NCBI RefSeq assembly: GCF_015291745.1
Contig: NZ_CP030059.1
Span: 3,933,501 to 3,997,500, forward strand
Origin: Bradyrhizobium sp. CCBAU 53351
Lineage (GTDB): Bacteria > Pseudomonadota > Alphaproteobacteria > Rhizobiales > Xanthobacteraceae
Direction: 5' to 3'
DNA: 64,000 nt
The notes under the pieces: model-generated
Seen by the model: only the letters and a program-made list of their open reading frames with translations
Databases searched by the model: none
Told to the model about the DNA's origin: nothing
Shown: in pieces, positions 34,987-42,706 of the stretch
Layout of the letters: the number at the start of each line of letters is the position of its first letter
How positions within the stretch are numbered: the first letter of the stretch is position 1
Program-made: the position numbers and the translations under genes

Positions 34987-36168
34987 CTACCGCCGGCCGC
35001 CGCCCATCCCTCCTCCGGGACCGCCGAATCCGCCGCCACCCATTCCACCCCCGGGACCCATCGGCCCGCCGGGTGCGCCCGGGCCCGACGGCCCGCCAGG
35101 TCCCGCCGGTGCGGAGCCGGGGTTGGGACCGGGGCTCGATCCAGGTGGAGATGTCCCCGGTGCGCCGGGCCGACTGCCGCCCGGATGGGGCGTGCTGCGA
35201 TCCGGGTGCATGATCGAGCCACCGGGCGACCGGTTCGGATTGCTGCCCCCGGGTGCAGCTGCCCCGGGTCCCTGACCGATGGCCTGCGCCGAATCTACCT
35301 GGAAGCCGCGGGAACGGTCGAATGCACCATTGACCACCATGCGCGCTTCACCGGCTGCCGGCCCGAAACGCGAGCCGTCGCGGGCCACGAGGCCGGAGCC
35401 AAGCTGGAGGTTCGCGCCGGCGCGCTGCACATAGGCCTCGACCGACAGACGGCTTGCGCCGACGAGATCCGAGAAATCGTCGATCCGCGTGCGCGTCGCC
35501 TGCATCGCGCCCTGGCTCGCGCTGCCTTCGACCTGGACGCGCTGGCCGACCAGCAGCGGATCGACACCGTTCAGTTTCAGCCCGCCAATTCGCAGGCCGT
35601 CGGGTCCGCGTTCGACCAGGCCGGTCACGCGCTCGGTCGCCGCACGCCGCGGCTCGACCAGGCTTGCGACGACCACGCCGTCGGTCCGGCGCAGACCATA
35701 GACGGCCACTTGCGTGCCCGGGCGGAGCTTGCCCTCCTTGTCGCCCGCGACGATTTTCTGGCCGAGCACCGTCAGCTCGTTGCCCTTCACCCGCTCGACC
35801 GGACCTGCAACCTCGCTCGCGATCGTGATGTTGCGCGTGACGAGCGTGCCGTCGGCCTGGCGGACCGCGACCACGCGCGCGAGCTGGCCGATGCGGAGCG
35901 CCTTGGCGCTTGCCGCCTCGCCGTCGATCCGGACCGGCACATCGCTGGCATAAGTGATCCGCTCGCCGTTGACGTAGATGCTGCCGAAGCGCTGGATGAC
36001 GCCCACGATGCCGGTACCGCCGATGCCGTGGTCATCCCCGCGGGTGATCCCGGTGCCGCCGATGCCCTGATCGGTGCCGCGCTTGACCTGCGCATGGGCC
36101 ATCGCGGTGCCGGCGAGCCAAAATCCTGTCAGCAGCAGACGGCGGGAGATCAGCGGCGGCCGGCTCAT
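34987..36168 (-). CDS. DUF5666-domain exported protein with Gly/Pro-rich tail
   Basis: The 393-residue protein opens with a signal peptide that has a twin-arginine flavour (SRRLLLTGFWLAG, cut after AHA), followed by a short repeat of GIGGTGI. Residues about 55-300 hold several small beta-barrel repeats of the DUF5666 type (GERITYASDVPVRIDGE, KLNGVDPLLVGQRVQVEG). The last 90 residues are Gly/Pro/Ser-rich, ending in GGMGGG repeats. The start overlaps the stop of the DUF6502 gene by 4 bp, so both are made together. Function unknown; periplasmic or surface location likely. Confidence 0.85.
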   Translation of the reverse strand: MSRPPLISRRLLLTGFWLAGTAMAHAQVKRGTDQGIGGTGITRGDDHGIGGTGIVGVIQRFGSIYVNGERITYASDVPVRIDGEAASAKALRIGQLARVVAVRQADGTLVTRNITIASEVAGPVERVKGNELTVLGQKIVAGDKEGKLRPGTQVAVYGLRRTDGVVVASLVEPRRAATERVTGLVERGPDGLRIGGLKLNGVDPLLVGQRVQVEGSASQGAMQATRTRIDDFSDLVGASRLSVEAYVQRAGANLQLGSGLVARDGSRFGPAAGEARMVVNGAFDRSRGFQVDSAQAIGQGPGAAAPGGSNPNRSPGGSIMHPDRSTPHPGGSRPGAPGTSPPGSSPGPNPGSAPAGPGGPSGPGAPGGPMGPGGGMGGGGFGGPGGGMGGGRR

Positions 36169-37064
36169 GCATAACCGCCTTCCTTGCCGCTTTCCTTACT
36201 ATTTTCCTTACTGTTTTCCTTGGCCCCGCTCTGCTCGTCGGCGTCCTCACTGTAAATGTAGATGCCGAAATTCCAGCGGGCGTCACCGCCCTTGTCCTTG
36301 GCGAGCGCGCGGTTGGCCTCGCGGTTGGCGGTCTTCAGCGCGTCCATGGCGAGCTCGCGCGAGCGCGCCTCGAGCTTTCGCGCCAGCTTCGGCGAGATGT
36401 TGTTGTAGTGCACCGCGCGTTCGAGGAAGCGCGGCCCATCGGAGACGTTCTGCGCGGCGGCCGCGATGTGGTCGTGCAGATTGCGACCGAGATAGTGCCA
36501 CTTGCTGTCGTCCTCGCCGCTCGGAACAAAGGCCGCCTCGACCAGCTCGATCTCGTCCTCCGCGTTGATGATGACGAGCTTTCGGTCGATCCATTCGTCG
36601 AGCACAGCGCGCGGGCGCACGTCCTTGGTGACGGACGCAACCAGCTGCTCGAACGACGGCGCATCCGCCTCTGCCGTGCGCGGCAACGGCAGCGGCTCGC
36701 CCTTGGCATCGGTGAATTCGGGCGCGGCCAGCCAGCGCGCGATCACCGCGCTGGTCAGCGACACCGCCGCCGGCGCCTCGTGCACGGGCGCACCCGCGCC
36801 GCGCAGCCGCGCCACCTCCTTGCGATGGATGCCGGTGAGCAGGCTGACGCGGCTGTCGGTCTGCTCCTTGCCCTCCAGCGCGAAATCGTGCTCGGCGACG
36901 TTGACGAAAAGCTCGCGAAGCAATTGCGCCAGCGCCGGAAAAGTCATCCCGCTACGGATGCAGAGCCGCACGAGCGGGCGCAGCAGCCGCGCCAATGGCG
37001 CGTGCAGCTTCGCGGCGGCATTCGGCTGCGGAGCCGCTGCTTTGGACCCGGGCTTGGCGTTCAT
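36165..37064 (-). CDS. DUF6502-family protein, candidate DNA-binding regulator
   Basis: The 299-residue cytoplasmic protein begins MNAKPGSKAAAPQPN and is of the DUF6502 type, commonly paired with DUF5666 genes. Residues 35-95 contain FPALAQLLRELFVNVAE and then SRVSLLTGIHRKEVARLRG, which reads as a helix-turn-helix recognition segment. The end repeats KENSKENSKESGKE. Its promoter at 37071-37098 overlaps a perfect palindrome, and the predicted transcript starts at or very near the ATG. I infer an autorepressor; this is a hypothesis, as the family has no described function that I know. Confidence 0.8.
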   Translation of the reverse strand: MNAKPGSKAAAPQPNAAAKLHAPLARLLRPLVRLCIRSGMTFPALAQLLRELFVNVAEHDFALEGKEQTDSRVSLLTGIHRKEVARLRGAGAPVHEAPAAVSLTSAVIARWLAAPEFTDAKGEPLPLPRTAEADAPSFEQLVASVTKDVRPRAVLDEWIDRKLVIINAEDEIELVEAAFVPSGEDDSKWHYLGRNLHDHIAAAAQNVSDGPRFLERAVHYNNISPKLARKLEARSRELAMDALKTANREANRALAKDKGGDARWNFGIYIYSEDADEQSGAKENSKENSKESGKEGGYA

Positions 37065-37070
37065 TTCTGA

Positions 37071-37098
37071 ATTGTATCACGCCTCATGTGGGACACAA
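37071..37098 (-). promoter_or_regulatory. Promoter of the DUF6502-DUF5666 operon
   Basis: Read leftward, TTGTGT (37093-37098) and TACAAT (37071-37076) are 16 bp apart. The -10 ends 6 bp before the ATG (37062-37064), so the mRNA would be leaderless. Operator O1 (37086-37106) covers the -35. Confidence 0.55.
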
Positions 37099-37106
37099 TC
37101 CCACAT
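37086..37106. promoter_or_regulatory. Operator O1, perfect palindrome
   Basis: ATGTGGGA-CACAA-TCCCACAT has perfect 8-bp arms around 5 bp and overlaps the -35 of the leftward promoter, a position expected for repression. Confidence 0.65.
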
Positions 37107-37121
37107 TTTTCGCCTCGGCGA

Positions 37122-37150
37122 TTGACGTGGTAAATTTTCCCACATATACG
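37122..37150 (+). promoter_or_regulatory. Promoter of the glycan operon
   Basis: TTGACG (37122-37127) and TATACG (37145-37150) are separated by the ideal 17 bp and lead to the small gene at 37190 with a leader of about 33 nt. Operator O2 lies across the spacer. Confidence 0.6.
37125..37145. promoter_or_regulatory. Operator O2, imperfect copy of O1
   Basis: ACGTGGTA-AATTT-TCCCACAT matches O1 with the same 5-bp spacer: the right arm is identical and the left arm matches at 6 of 8 positions. Its centre is 39 bp from that of O1, and it spans the rightward promoter spacer up to the -10. Confidence 0.55.
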
Positions 37151-37189
37151 AGACGCCACTGAGGGGCGCGACGTAAAGGGACAACACCC

Positions 37190-37351
37190 ATGGCTGACCG
37201 CTTGGTCCGCATTTCCAGTTCACCGCGTTCCGTGCCGGCTTCCGGCCGGGAGCGCGGCACGATCGACCCGATGCTGCCGGGGCTGCTGCGCGGCGTGATC
37301 TTCATCTCGGTGCTGGCCGCACCGTTCGTCGCAGCCATTCTGGCAGGCTGA
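37190..37351 (+). CDS. Small membrane protein (53 aa) leading the glycan operon
   Basis: An ATG at 37190 with AAAGGG 9 nt upstream opens a 53-codon frame, MADRLVRISSSPRSVP..., with a basic cytoplasmic lead of about 30 residues and one helix (LLRGVIFISVLAAPFVAAIL) ending at the C-terminus. It stops 8 bp before the glycosyltransferase-permease ATG, so the two are translationally coupled. It may anchor or assist the export complex; no family recognised. Confidence 0.65.
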   Translation: MADRLVRISSSPRSVPASGRERGTIDPMLPGLLRGVIFISVLAAPFVAAILAG

Positions 37352-37359
37352 CCGCCATC

Positions 37360-39294
37360 ATGCATCACACTCAAGGAACCTTGCACGACACTCCGCGCCG
37401 CCCGTCGGTGCTGCACATCTTCAAGATCTATTATCCCGACCTGTTCGGCGGCACGCTCACGGTGATCCGCGACATCTGCGCGAACCTGAAGGACGCCTTC
37501 GCCTCCGCCGTGCTGGTCTGCTCGCAAGCGCCCGAAAAACGCCAGATCGTCGTCGACGACGTGCCGGTCGAGCGCGTTCGCTCGTTCGGCAATCTGTTGT
37601 CGCTGCCCGCCGCCCCGACCTATCCCTGGCGTCTCTGGCGGAAGATCGCCGAGCACGATTTGCTCGCGCTCCACGCACCCTTCCCGCTCGCCGATCTGGT
37701 TTTCGCGTTCGGTTTCGGCCGGAAGCGGCCGCTCGTGGTGCACTGGCACGCCGACATCGTCACCCATGCCGGCCTGCGCTGGTTCATCGAACCCCTGATG
37801 CGGCGGACCTTGCGGCGCGCCAAGGCGATCATCGTCTCCGACCACGTGCTGGTCGACAACACGCCGCTGCTCCGCGAATACGAGGACAAATGCCACGTCG
37901 TGCCATTTGGCATCGACATCTCGGGTTACGACTGGCCGAAGATCGAGCCGCATCACGTCAATGATCGCGGCCGGCTGGTGCTCGCGTGCGGCCGGCTCGT
38001 GCCTTACAAGGGCTTCGACGTGCTGATCCGCGCCGCGGCCGCATACAATTTCGAAGTCTGGATCGTTGGCGAAGGCACCGAGCGACCGCGGCTGGTGCAG
38101 CTGATCGAGGAGCTTGGGCTCTCAGAGCGCGTCCGCCTGCTCGGCTCGGTCAAAGATTGCGAGCGCATCAAGCTGATGTGCCTCGCCGACGTCTTCGTGA
38201 TGCCCTCCGTCACCACCGCCGAGACATTCGGCCTTGTCCAGCTGGAGGCCATGGCCGCAGGACGCCCGGTCGTGAACACGGCGCTCGACACCGCGGTGCC
38301 GCGGGTCGCCCGCCACGGCATGGAGGCGATCACCGTGCCGCCCGGCGACGCCGAAAAGCTTGGCGAAGCCATCGACACGCTGATCCGCGACCCCGAACGC
38401 CGCCGGCGCATGGGACTTGCGGCGCGCAACCGCGCCCTCACCCGATACTCGGCCTCGGCTTTCAAGCAGGGCATGGAAACAATCTACCGCGACGCAATTG
38501 CCGCGCCATGCCAGCAGCGTTCGGCGAGCGCCGAGCCGGCCACCGGTTGGCTCGACAGCATCCGGATCGCGGCGACGCTGGCCTGGTCGGACATGCGCCA
38601 TCGCTACGTGCGTTCGCTGCTCGGCCCGTTCTGGATGTCGCTCCAGATGGCGATCGTGGTCGCGGTGCTCGGTTCGGTGATCGGGCAGATGTCGAACGCC
38701 GACGTGCTGTCGCGTCTACCCATGCTCGCGCTCTCGATGACGGCCTGGACCTTTCTCAACAGCGTGGTGCTCGATGCGACCACGGCGCTGCAGAACTCCG
38801 CGAGCCTGATCCGCGACCGCGCGCTGCCACCGGTCATCTTCCTCCTGCAATGCACGTTCCGCCAGGGACTGTTCGCGCTTCATAACGCCTGCGTGCCGCT
38901 GCTGCTGTGGCTCATCCTGTCGCGCCACGACCTCTCCCACGCGCCGGCGGCGCTCCCCGGCCTGCTGCTGTTCGTGGTCTGCACCTTCGCCTTGAGCCTC
39001 GTTCTCGGCGCGATGGCAACGCGCTATCGCGATCTCAAGCCGATCGTCGAATCGACGCTGATGCTGGCATTTCTTGCCTCACCCGTGATCTGGTCGTCGG
39101 ACATGATCAACCATCGCTCGACGGTGATGCGGCTCAATCCGTTGACCCATCTGTTCGCGGTGTGGCGCGAGCCGCTCGTGGGCGGCCACGTCGATCCCGT
39201 CAGCATCGTCTATGTTCTGGTCGCGCTGGCACTGCTGGTCTTTGCGAGCATGCTGACGCTGATCCACCTGCGCAAAGCCGCATTCTGGATCTGA
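37360..39294 (+). CDS. Glycosyltransferase family 4 fused to ABC-2 polysaccharide permease
   Basis: One uninterrupted 644-residue frame holds two proteins. Residues 15-390 are a GT-B glycosyltransferase of family 4, with the nucleotide-sugar-binding GRLVPYKGFDVLI and the EX7E motif in ETFGLVQLEAMAAGRP. Residues 400-644 form a six-helix ABC-2 permease like Wzm/KpsM, with its amphipathic start (DMRHRYVRSLLGPFWMSLQM) and the usual end (NPLTHLFAVWREPLVGG). In most systems these are separate genes. The ATPase follows 3 bp later. The fusion would hold sugar addition at the mouth of the exporter. No frameshift or internal stop was seen. Confidence 0.9.
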   Translation: MHHTQGTLHDTPRRPSVLHIFKIYYPDLFGGTLTVIRDICANLKDAFASAVLVCSQAPEKRQIVVDDVPVERVRSFGNLLSLPAAPTYPWRLWRKIAEHDLLALHAPFPLADLVFAFGFGRKRPLVVHWHADIVTHAGLRWFIEPLMRRTLRRAKAIIVSDHVLVDNTPLLREYEDKCHVVPFGIDISGYDWPKIEPHHVNDRGRLVLACGRLVPYKGFDVLIRAAAAYNFEVWIVGEGTERPRLVQLIEELGLSERVRLLGSVKDCERIKLMCLADVFVMPSVTTAETFGLVQLEAMAAGRPVVNTALDTAVPRVARHGMEAITVPPGDAEKLGEAIDTLIRDPERRRRMGLAARNRALTRYSASAFKQGMETIYRDAIAAPCQQRSASAEPATGWLDSIRIAATLAWSDMRHRYVRSLLGPFWMSLQMAIVVAVLGSVIGQMSNADVLSRLPMLALSMTAWTFLNSVVLDATTALQNSASLIRDRALPPVIFLLQCTFRQGLFALHNACVPLLLWLILSRHDLSHAPAALPGLLLFVVCTFALSLVLGAMATRYRDLKPIVESTLMLAFLASPVIWSSDMINHRSTVMRLNPLTHLFAVWREPLVGGHVDPVSIVYVLVALALLVFASMLTLIHLRKAAFWI

Positions 39295-39297
39295 CGC

Positions 39298-40038
39298 ATG
39301 GTCTCGATCAGCCTGCGCAACGTCTGTCTCGATTATCCGCTCTACGGCGCCTACGACTATTCGCTGAAGCGGCGGCTGCTCGGCCATCTCATCCGCGAGC
39401 CGGGGGAGACGCGGATCATCCGCGCCGTGGATAACGTCTCGATCGAGGCCGAAACCGGCGCCCGCATCGGGCTTGCCGGCCCCAACGGTTCCGGCAAATC
39501 GACACTGTTGCGATTGATCGCCGGCGTTTATCCGCCGAGCAGCGGCAGCATGACGGTTCGGGGCAATGTCGTGCCCCTGCTCGGCCTCAACGCCGGCGTC
39601 AATCTCGACTTCGTCGCCGAGGACAACATCGCCCTGCTGCTGCGGATCAGCGGCCGCAAGCCGACCCGCGCGATGATCGACGAGATCTGGGCCTTCACCG
39701 AGCTCGAGACGCGCATGCAGCGACTGCCGCTGCGGATGTTCTCCTCGGGCATGCTGATGCGGGTGCTGTTTGCGACCGCCACCGCGTTTCCGGCCGACAT
39801 CCTCCTGCTCGACGAATGGCTCAGCGTGGTCGACGAGCATTTTGCGGAGAAGGCCCAGGAGCGGCTCCTGAACCTCGTGTCGCAGGCGGCGATCGTGATC
39901 ATCGCCTCCCACGATCAGCCGCTGCTGCGTCGGACCTGCACCCGCATCGTCAACCTCGATCACGGCCACGTCGCCTCGACCGTCACGGTCGCCCCGCCGG
40001 CCACCCACGCCCTCGATCTCCACGAGAAACGCGCATGA
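39298..40038 (+). CDS. ABC transporter ATPase for polysaccharide export (Wzt/KpsT-like)
   Basis: The 246-residue ATPase has Walker A (GPNGSGKST), an SSGM-type signature typical of polysaccharide exporters (RMFSSGMLMRVLFATA) and Walker B (ILLLDEWLSVVDEHF). It is short, so it lacks the C-terminal carbohydrate-binding domain of Wzt proteins and resembles KpsT or the O-antigen RfbE type. It pairs with the permease half of the preceding gene. Its stop overlaps the next start by 4 bp. Confidence 0.93.
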   Translation: MVSISLRNVCLDYPLYGAYDYSLKRRLLGHLIREPGETRIIRAVDNVSIEAETGARIGLAGPNGSGKSTLLRLIAGVYPPSSGSMTVRGNVVPLLGLNAGVNLDFVAEDNIALLLRISGRKPTRAMIDEIWAFTELETRMQRLPLRMFSSGMLMRVLFATATAFPADILLLDEWLSVVDEHFAEKAQERLLNLVSQAAIVIIASHDQPLLRRTCTRIVNLDHGHVASTVTVAPPATHALDLHEKRA

Positions 40039-41429
40039 AGCAGAACATCCTCGTCATATCCGAAGCGCTGGGCGAGCCCAACCACAAGCGCGGCATCTTC
40101 CACTTCACCCGCGAGCTGATGCGCTCGCTCGCGGCAGAGGGGCACGAGCTGACGCTGCTGGTGGAGACCACGCGGCGCTATCGCAAGCTGCAGCGGCGCG
40201 AGCGGCGCACCAAGCTGTTTCCGGCACAGGCGCGCAACATCGAGCTGCTGGCCCTCTATCGCTTCCTCGACGAGGTCAACATGGCCGAGCCGGTCGTGCG
40301 TGGCGGCCTGCGCCGCACGCTCGACTGGGTCCGCCACAAGGCCACCATGTCCGTGTCGTGGGACTACATCGTCTGTTTCCTGCGCGCGATCGGCCTGCGG
40401 GCCTTGCGCGCCCGGCTGATCGAGAACAGGACCGCGGCGCTCGAATACGTCCCGCCCGACCTGCGCCATCTCGAGCTGTTCCGCGAGTTTCAGCTCGAGC
40501 CCGGCTTCTACAGCTACCAGGACTCCTCGGCCTTCTTCCTGCTGCCGCCGCCGCGGGTTGATGCCCGCGGCTACGACGTCATCGTCGTGGATACCCCGAC
40601 CCGGGTCGCGATCACGCGCAGGTCCGGCGCCAAGGTGATCTGCGTCGTGCATGATCTGTTGCCGCTCACCGACCTCAAGCTCAGCGATATCGCAACGCGG
40701 CTGTTCCTGTCGCGGCTCCTGACGAGCCTGCGCCAGGCCGACGAGCTCGCCTTCGTTTCAAACTACAGCATGATGCGGTTCAGGGAGCTGCTGCCGCAAT
40801 TTGCGCACCTGCCGGCGCGGGTCGTGTATCCCCGCACCCGGTTCGACGCCCCGGATGTCCTGCACCTTCCAGCCCCGTCGGGCCGTCCGGGGCGGCCGAG
40901 CTTCGTCGTCATCGTCTCGAACGAGCCGCGCAAGAACGTCGCCACCGTCGTTCGCGCCTTCCGTGGCGTGCCCCAGGCCGATCTCGTCGTGATCGGCTAT
41001 GCTGGCGAGATCGGCCGGATGCGCAATCCGCCGCAAAATGTCCGCTTCGCCGGCTATGTCGACGAGCACGAAAAGGCCGCCCTGATCGCCGAGGCACACG
41101 GTCTGATCATGCCGAGTTTCGCCGAGGGGTTCGGCGTGCCGATCATCGAGGCGCTGGCCGCGAACACGCCGGTGCTGTGCTCCGACATCGCCGTGTTTCG
41201 CGAGGTCGCGGGCGAGCTCGCCGACTATTTCGACCCGTTCTCGACCGACTCGATCGCCGCCTCCGTCACCCGCGTGCTGACCCGGCAGGAGGAGTGCCGC
41301 GGCAGGATCCGAGCGCGACGGCACGAGCTCGCCGAGCGCTTCGGCTACGAGACCCAGGCCCGCGATTTCCTCGGGCATCATGCGCCCGCGGCAAGCCTTG
41401 TCGGCGCGCAACTCGCTTCATACGGATGA
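40035..41429 (+). CDS. Glycosyltransferase, GT-B family 4
   Basis: The 464-residue product is in the same operon. The N-terminal half begins MKQNILVISEALGEPNHKRG, and the C-terminal half has the donor-binding NEPRKNVATVVRAF and the EX7E motif in AEGFGVPIIEALAANTPVL. It is a second sugar transferase for the exported glycan. Sugar specificity cannot be told. Its start and stop each overlap a neighbouring gene by 4 bp. Confidence 0.9.
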   Translation: MKQNILVISEALGEPNHKRGIFHFTRELMRSLAAEGHELTLLVETTRRYRKLQRRERRTKLFPAQARNIELLALYRFLDEVNMAEPVVRGGLRRTLDWVRHKATMSVSWDYIVCFLRAIGLRALRARLIENRTAALEYVPPDLRHLELFREFQLEPGFYSYQDSSAFFLLPPPRVDARGYDVIVVDTPTRVAITRRSGAKVICVVHDLLPLTDLKLSDIATRLFLSRLLTSLRQADELAFVSNYSMMRFRELLPQFAHLPARVVYPRTRFDAPDVLHLPAPSGRPGRPSFVVIVSNEPRKNVATVVRAFRGVPQADLVVIGYAGEIGRMRNPPQNVRFAGYVDEHEKAALIAEAHGLIMPSFAEGFGVPIIEALAANTPVLCSDIAVFREVAGELADYFDPFSTDSIAASVTRVLTRQEECRGRIRARRHELAERFGYETQARDFLGHHAPAASLVGAQLASYG

Positions 41430-42706
41430 CCGCCGAATCCGCGTTGTGGTCCGGTCCTGCCGATCGGCAAGGCAGGACTGGCCGATGGCAGAGTTGGCGC
41501 AGCTCGGCCGCGCTGATCCGGGCCGCAGACGTCCTTGCCGCCCTGATCGCGGCGTCCCTGCCCTGGTCCACGACAGTGCCGTCGATCTTCGTCGGACTCT
41601 GGCTCCTGGTGGTGACGCCAACCATCGATTGGCGCGACTATGGACACGAGGTCGCGCGACCGGCGTTTGCCCTGCCCTTCGCAATCCTGCTGCTCGCACT
41701 GCTCGGCCTGCTGTGGTCGGACGGCGCGTGGGCGGATCGGTTGCATGCGATCAAGCCGGTCGCAAAGCTCGTGCTGATTCCGCCGCTGCTCTACCATTTC
41801 AGCCGGTCGGAGCGCGGTCTTTGGGTTGGCCTCGCCTTTGTCGTGTCCTGCGCCTTGCTCGCCGTCTTCTCCTGGATCGTGTTGCTCGATCCCGCCTGGA
41901 AGATCACGGCGACGGCGTCATCAGGCGTGCCCGTCAAGAACTACATCGACCAGAGCCAGGAGTTCACGCTGTGCGCCTTCGCGCTTGCCCTGCCCGCGCT
42001 GACCTTCTGGCGTCGCGGAAACGTGGTCGCGACGGCGGCCTGTCTGGCGCTGATCCTGCTGTTCGCGGCCAACATGGTGTTCGTCGCCTCCGCGCGCACG
42101 GCGCTGCTCTGCATTGCGGTCCTGCTGGCTCTGTTCGCCTGGAAGCATCTCAACCGGCGCGCAACGCTGGTCCTGCTCGCGGGCACGGTCGCCGTAACCG
42201 CGCTGGCCTGGGCGACGTCGCCCTATCTGCGCCAGCGCATCACGGACATTGGGGTCGAATATCGCCATGGCCATGAGGACATCAGCCGTGCCTCGACCGC
42301 GCAGCGGCTGACCTATTGGCGCAAGGCGATCCACAGCTTTGCCGAGGCGCCCTTGATCGGGCACGGCACCGGCTCGATCAAGCGGCAGTTCGAACGCGCC
42401 GCCACGGGCGGAAGCAGCCTCGATGCGGAGGTCGTCAACAATCCGCACAACCAGACCCTCAACGTCGCCATGCAATGGGGCCTCTTGGGCGTCGTTTTGC
42501 TCCACGCCATGTGGATCGCCCATCTCCGCCTGTTCCTCGGCGGAGGGCTCGCAGCCTGGATCGGGCTGGTGGTCGTCGTGCAGAACGTCACGAGTTCGCT
42601 GTTGAACTCGCACCTGTTCGATTTTCACGAGGGCTGGATGTATGTGCTCGGTGTCGGGGTCGCCGGCGGCACGGTGTTGAAGGCCAAAACCCGCAGCCAA
42701 CCGTGA
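41426..42706 (+). CDS. O-antigen ligase / polymerase family membrane protein
   Basis: The 426-residue protein has about eleven transmembrane segments and the large periplasmic loop of the Wzy_C/WaaL family, with the conserved arginine- and histidine-bearing sections (ASARTALL and VVNNPHNQTLNVAMQWG). It joins lipid-linked glycan to an acceptor such as lipid A-core, or polymerises repeat units. With an ABC exporter in the same operon, ligation is the more likely role. It ends the operon; its stop codon directly abuts that of the convergent gene. Confidence 0.88.
   Translation: MTAESALWSGPADRQGRTGRWQSWRSSAALIRAADVLAALIAASLPWSTTVPSIFVGLWLLVVTPTIDWRDYGHEVARPAFALPFAILLLALLGLLWSDGAWADRLHAIKPVAKLVLIPPLLYHFSRSERGLWVGLAFVVSCALLAVFSWIVLLDPAWKITATASSGVPVKNYIDQSQEFTLCAFALALPALTFWRRGNVVATAACLALILLFAANMVFVASARTALLCIAVLLALFAWKHLNRRATLVLLAGTVAVTALAWATSPYLRQRITDIGVEYRHGHEDISRASTAQRLTYWRKAIHSFAEAPLIGHGTGSIKRQFERAATGGSSLDAEVVNNPHNQTLNVAMQWGLLGVVLLHAMWIAHLRLFLGGGLAAWIGLVVVVQNVTSSLLNSHLFDFHEGWMYVLGVGVAGGTVLKAKTRSQP

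Follow-up and report, generated by a model that had tools for sequence, protein, structure and literature searches.

What controls the region between two divergent transcription units when the candidate regulator beside it belongs to a protein family to which no function has been assigned? We addressed this question in Bradyrhizobium sp. CCBAU 53351, using a stretch of 64,000 nucleotides (contig NZ_CP030059.1, positions 3,933,501 to 3,997,500; hereafter the window, with coordinates counted from its first base) in which a gene for a 299-aa DUF6502 protein (36165..37064, minus strand) lies back to back with an operon for surface-glycan export. Pfam has no function on record for DUF6502 (PF20112); we propose what it probably does, which operator it uses and how the promoters are laid out. 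Comparative analysis of the locus makes it likely that DUF6502 proteins form a family of local, one-component autoregulators, each serving a single locus, probably as repressors, through palindromic operators specific to each clade.

Results

Twin palindromes overlap both divergent promoters

An earlier note on this DNA had placed two copies of the palindrome ATGTGGGA-N5-TCCCACAT between the divergent units, and both are there. The first, op1, is exact (ATGTGGGA-CACAA-TCCCACAT, 37086..37106), and the second, op2 (37125..37145), carries two mismatches, both in its left arm; neither is assigned a strand. With up to three mismatches allowed, op1 and op2 were the sole matches in the 64-kb window, where 0.14 would be expected, and two or more matches appeared in only 1 of 100 shuffles; together with the conservation described below, this argues against chance. 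The longer arms first proposed are present as given, but the conserved core is shorter, 6+6 bp (GTGGGA-N5-TCCCAC, 37088-37104 in op1; GTGGTA-AATTT-TCCCAC, 37127-37143 in op2), and the outer A/T letters vary among relatives. The exact string TGTGGGA-N5-TCCCACA occurs once in the whole 8.3-Mb genome, at op1.

Both promoters also have the elements that had been described for them. Leftward, on the minus strand, TTGTGT (-35, 37098-37093) is followed after 16 bp by TACAAT (-10, 37076-37071) and, 6 nt further, by the DUF6502 start codon at 37064; op1 contains this -35 box, part of which forms the operator's spacer. Rightward, on the plus strand, TTGACG (-35, 37122..37127) abuts op2, which occupies the 17-bp spacer up to TATACG (-10, 37145..37150).

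The operators are conserved with the gene in Bradyrhizobium

DUF6502 was found in 54 of 146 genus genomes, and the named close relatives of the window protein, among 120 listed, are likewise Bradyrhizobium. All 54 loci have op1, one of them with a single changed spacer base. They also all have a recognisable op2, decayed in two; the op2 core has exactly one left-arm mismatch in 52 loci (GTGGTA in 34, GTGTGA in 17 and GTGGGT in 1), and TTGAC stands immediately 5' of op2 in 52 of 54. Mean column identity across these loci was 0.99 for op1, 0.94 for TTGAC plus op2 and 0.88 for the leftward -10 box, with 0.63 between that box and op1 and 0.57 between op1 and op2. The leftward -35 box reads TTGTGT in 45 loci, TTGTAT in 8 and TTGTCT in 1, and a TA-type -10 hexamer lies 17 nt away in 53 of 54, the 16-bp spacer being particular to the window strain.

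The start codon follows the leftward -10 box by 5-7 nt in 52 of 54 loci as measured by script; in L008 and L014 the script chose an earlier in-frame ATG, and an ATG at 6 nt is also present. At this distance a leaderless leftward mRNA, as the earlier note had suggested, is plausible. Leaderless mRNAs do occur in the genus, since the B. japonicum USDA 110 differential RNA sequencing study (PMC4842269) reports 320 gene starts placed within the 0-10 nt before a start codon, 192 of them exactly on it.

In a set of 142 genus genomes, exact op1 was present in 52, as a single copy each and always among the 53 genomes with DUF6502; the 53rd (G031) differs by one op1 spacer base. In the 89 that lack DUF6502, exact op1 did not occur. 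Because gene and site form one block of DNA, this restriction speaks to where the site occurs, not to what binds it.

Operator type tracks the DUF6502 clade

Outside the genus, PF20112 is scattered: it was detected in 3 of 198 genomes sampled from the family, 13 of 289 from the class and 21 of 398 from the phylum, and in 31 of 200, 26 of 145 and 20 of 148 genomes of three sampled orders. The expectation that homologues would share the palindrome held here too. Within 300 bp upstream, GTGGGA-N5-TCCCAC with up to two mismatches was found at 73 of 80 named DUF6502 loci, compared with 33 of 2,701 control windows from the same loci (Fisher p ~4e-109), and two or more sites at 53 of 80, compared with 9 of 2,701; these 80 are the best of at least 563 relatives of one query and are biased to the GxHRK type.

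Could a global regulator bind these palindromes, with DUF6502 merely a frequent target? The evidence that ties DUF6502 to the DNA is indirect, and genes for local regulators can be controlled from outside as well. The distribution of sites nevertheless speaks against it. In 25 DUF6502-positive genomes, chosen by hand as were 25 negative ones, we counted 28 exact sites, 21 just upstream of DUF6502 and 7 elsewhere; the latter number is at background level, as the negative genomes held 6, and the reversed control pattern gave 22 and 12 sites in the positive and negative sets. The window's own genome showed no excess either, with 8 forward-strand sites at up to two mismatches (op1 and op2 included) against 12 for the reversed control. 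Off-locus sites at background argue that DUF6502 is a regulator of one locus, and the absence of exact op1 from genus genomes that lack the gene also tells against a global factor. The DUF5666 protein encoded next to DUF6502 is itself an unlikely binder because it looks exported (50 of 51 partners by a crude rule).

The operator type itself follows the DUF6502 clade. We typed a mixed set of 194 gene matches with 189 distinct upstream regions, of which 7 without a recognised helix pattern were dropped and 182 kept, allowing up to two mismatches (shuffled expectation ~0.01 per gene and type). Proteins with H79 (n=145) had the GTGGGA-N5 type in 122 cases, the TTGGGA type in 3 and none in 20. The 37 others divided differently: TTGGGA-N6-TCCCAA stood before 11 of 12 S/T79-K81 genes (none before the other), ATGTGC-N5-GCACAT before 9 of 9 Q79-R81 genes, and N79-K81 genes had TTGGGA (3), GTGGGA (1) or none (3). 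The N79-R81 genes had ATGTGC (2, one weak), GTGGGA (1) or none (1); single or paired cases were T79-R81 with ATGTGC (1), Y79 with GTGGGA (2), D79 with GTGGGA (1) and P79 with none (1). Operator type changed at least six times on the tree, which is not enough to point to one residue. Residue 79 was considered as a specificity determinant on the strength of its raw association, but a tree-based test with 4-5 independent changes was not significant, and we make no such claim.

Some paralogues within one genome also differ. G1034 pairs GTGGGA with a doubled GCGGGA-N5-TCCCGC; G991 pairs GTGGGA with GTGTAA-N5-TTACAC and has a third copy without a clear palindrome; and G576 pairs the TTGGGA-N6 type with a TTGGGT-N5 type. 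Some DUF6502 copies in G1281 and in several further genomes had no clear palindrome upstream, and for L092 the comparison used a wrong frame. These shifts of operator with clade and between paralogues count further against a shared external regulator, an explanation that we consider very improbable, and leave DUF6502 itself as the preferred candidate.

DUF6502 has a predicted helix-turn-helix

The window protein belongs to PF20112 (100.5 bits, curated cut-off 27, residues 20-273), as do all 93 rows of alignment A3. It matched no other Pfam family at E <=0.1, TetR, MarR, LacI and the other named Pfam regulator families included, and no NCBIfam model; among 93 DUF6502 relatives, two helix-turn-helix (HTH) models matched one or two members, at E 0.02-0.06 only. 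The structure model predicts an HTH where an HTH-like stretch had been noted, at residues 69-86 (helices 69-76 and 80-86; 36807..36860, minus strand), and S70, G77 and R80 are invariant in A3. Beyond the HTH the model predicts a winged-helix-like region and a helical C-terminal part; when the N-terminal domain was compared by itself, its matches were mostly HTH DNA-binding domains. Foldseek against the PDB returned nothing at E <=0.001 for the full model or the N-terminal domain, and a PDB sequence search gave one weak row (E 0.012). Cyanobacterial HetR (structures 4j00 and 4hri) is a lead only, with a poor structural match (root-mean-square deviation 11) and no HetR family among the Pfam matches of A3.

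Operator positions suit repression

Among 140 loci of the H79 type from other genera, 59 have a TTGAC that abuts the operator and faces away from DUF6502 (GTCA on the gene side), and 1 has the reverse arrangement; two offsets were accepted on the side of the gene and one on the opposite side, and a strict single offset gave the identical 59. In 52 of these 59 divergent promoters a hexamer starting with TA lies at 17 bp, matching the geometry of the window's -10 box. None had one at 13-16 bp and 1 had one at 18 bp, and the TA found at 19 bp (14 of 59) or 20 bp (17 of 59) falls within the same hexamer as the 17-bp TA. In these distant loci, as in the window, the operator thus takes up the stretch between the two boxes of the divergent promoter.

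A site in the spacer is also where MerR-type activators bind, so that DUF6502 might bind op2 and activate. MerR targets have spacers of 19-20 bp, whereas 17 bp, the length in the window and the distance to the TA-type -10 at most of the distant loci, is optimal for RNA polymerase unaided; no sequence match to MerR-type regulators was seen. The remaining operator positions point the same way: op1 lies over a -35 box, and TTGGGA-N6-TCCCAA operators are found mostly at -20 relative to the ATG, where they cover the -10 region and the likely start point of transcripts with hardly any leader. Sites over -35, spacer and -10 region suit repression by occlusion, and activation seems to us improbable, if slightly less so than a global regulator.

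The proposed divergent target is a glycan export operon here and other genes elsewhere

To the right of op2, on the plus strand, the first gene is a 53-aa open reading frame (ORF) with a single hydrophobic stretch (37190..37351), for which a Pfam search gave no match and a similar ORF occurs in 40 of 54 genus loci. It is followed by a 644-aa fusion of a GT4 glycosyltransferase (GT) with a Wzm-like ABC-2 export permease (37360..39294; Pfam), a Wzt-like ABC ATPase (39298..40038; Pfam, NCBIfam), a GT4 glycosyltransferase (40035..41429; Pfam, with the start taken from the ORF and 40098-41429 used in the search) and an O-antigen ligase/polymerase-like protein (Wzy_C, 41177..42706; Pfam, start uncertain). 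On the minus strand, the DUF5666 gene (PF18914, 34987..36168), with an exported-type N-terminus, overlaps the end of the DUF6502 gene by 4 bp and is probably cotranscribed with it.

Of 53 DUF6502-bearing genus genomes, 47 have a close orthologue of this GT-Wzm fusion (46 at E 0; the match in G013 is shorter), and in these the glycan operon is the neighbour of DUF6502; the 89 genomes without DUF6502 had none, only distant glycosyltransferase or permease matches (best E 8e-92, 44% identity over the GT half). Six DUF6502 genomes lack the fusion: G023, G038, G042, G049, G065 and G103. In G042 and G049 DUF6502 is split over two frames, op2 is decayed, the glycan operon is gone and no DUF5666 match was found within the fetched stretch; G049 is a fragmented assembly, where the frame break is possibly a sequencing error. 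These two are the only loci of the 54 with a decayed op2, and the first ORF is at least 282 aa long in every locus except these and L058, where a contig end cuts the gene. G023, G038 and G103 retain op2 next to an intact DUF6502 gene, and G065 has an O-antigen-ligase-like gene right of op2 with 40% identity to the window's Wzy. As side observations, short Wzy-like remnants adjoin op2 in L040, L042 and L059, as if an internal deletion had removed the glycan operon, and in L041, L044, L045, L047 and others a gene of ~144 aa (FDLAIAEACR...) of unknown family, without a Pfam match in its L047 copy, separates op2 from the glycosyltransferase gene.

The loci without the operon bear on whether op2 serves it at all. 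Were op1 alone the autoregulatory site and op2 an auxiliary to the DUF6502 promoter, through cooperativity or looping, op2 could outlast the glycan operon, and in L039, L040 and L042 the operon is lost yet DUF6502 is intact and op2 good. The op1-op2 offsets in the genus also cluster, at 27-29 bp and again roughly one helical turn further on, at 38-42 bp, and spacings at distant loci have a weak 10.5-bp phase (Rayleigh p ~0.006 over 101 spacings whose rows are not independent). Against this, op2 is nested in a textbook promoter facing the operon, and the same geometry recurs far outside the genus, so we judge a purely auxiliary op2 unlikely and favour its control of the divergent unit. Helical phasing between operators is clear only as the two genus clusters and weak elsewhere, and is not claimed.

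Outside the genus the downstream partner is largely kept: DUF5666 was matched by 47 of 67 genes tested downstream of DUF6502, and among 51 partners of at least 200 aa, 42 contain GIGGTG and 50 have a crude export signal. The divergent genes vary, among them alpha/beta hydrolases, beta-propeller-like proteins and small exported-type proteins, and no common Pfam family emerged from the 57 searched of 66 listed candidates, in which alpha/beta hydrolases were commonest (7 of 57); neighbour ORFs were called crudely, as the longest frame. One locus, L072, belongs to a different genus of the family, and its divergent gene is a homologue of the window's first glycosyltransferase. Because the divergent gene differs outside the genus, surface-glycan export is not a family-wide target of DUF6502. 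Envelope targets in general were considered and set aside, the excess of crude export signals among divergent genes (33 of 56, compared with 102 of 267 control ORFs, p 0.005) being only a hint under a lax rule. Separately, the divergent neighbour in L193 and L200 is a DUF535 gene (Pfam E 2e-70 for L193, with which L200 clusters), and in L120, L124 and L127 its product is lipoprotein-like and carries GIGGTG, the signature otherwise found in the DUF5666 partner (no Pfam match for the L120 protein).

Discussion

DUF6502 combines what would be expected of a local HTH autoregulator: a predicted HTH fold and a palindromic operator that lies over its own promoter and is conserved with the gene. We infer that it binds the operators, that it dimerises, that it represses and that its sites differ in affinity. 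The N-terminal HTH would recognise the half-site GTGGGA, with the protein most likely dimeric on GTGGGA-N5-TCCCAC. At op1 it would cover the -35 box of the promoter for DUF6502-DUF5666, whose mRNA is probably leaderless, and at op2 it would fill the spacer of the divergent promoter for the 53-aa ORF, the GT-Wzm fusion, Wzt, the second glycosyltransferase and Wzy. While bound, the protein would deny RNA polymerase access to both promoters, repressing its own unit and the divergent one; since op1 is perfect and op2 one base off, the divergent promoter should be released first. Any signal may reach DUF6502 by way of exported DUF5666 or from a ligand of its own C-terminal half. In the window, DUF6502 should control itself, DUF5666 and the surface-glycan export operon. 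The earlier note's proposal that it represses itself, its DUF5666 partner and glycan export gains support from operator conservation and the predicted HTH, with DUF6502 as the probable binder and probable repressor; the glycan target does not extend to the family.

Autorepressors of the TetR, MarR or LacI style share with DUF6502 the palindromic operators over promoter elements, the local and divergent targets and the HTH, which is predicted here. DUF6502 differs in matching no Pfam regulator family, in its predicted winged-helix-like region and helical C-terminal part, and in its exported-type DUF5666 partner. The mode of action would be an ordinary one. A literature search, with most subscription journals outside its coverage, found no papers on DUF6502 or PF20112 and listed four for DUF5666, and GTGGGA/TCCCAC and related motif strings gave nothing relevant by title among the matches listed; in the literature searched we found no description of the family's function, its operator or the operator-in-spacer layout.

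A wider and more tentative reading, which we rate as doubtful but worth stating, is that DUF6502-DUF5666 forms a self-contained switch, widespread in Pseudomonadota, that senses the envelope. Exported DUF5666 would report the state of the envelope to the DUF6502 repressor with which it is cotranscribed, and the repressor would use a single operator code, insulated and specific to its clade, to control a swappable divergent gene, often for an exported protein and here for a surface glycan; a genome could hold several copies, each with its own palindrome.

With this analysis PF20112, so far without an assigned function, becomes a regulator family that can be tested and has a defined operator, and the hypothetical genes beside DUF6502 can be viewed in terms of their regulation. 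The divergence of operator specificity could be studied on the three operator types and their matching clades, and on genomes whose paralogues have different palindromes. In this Bradyrhizobium window, the locus is a proposed control point for surface polysaccharide export.
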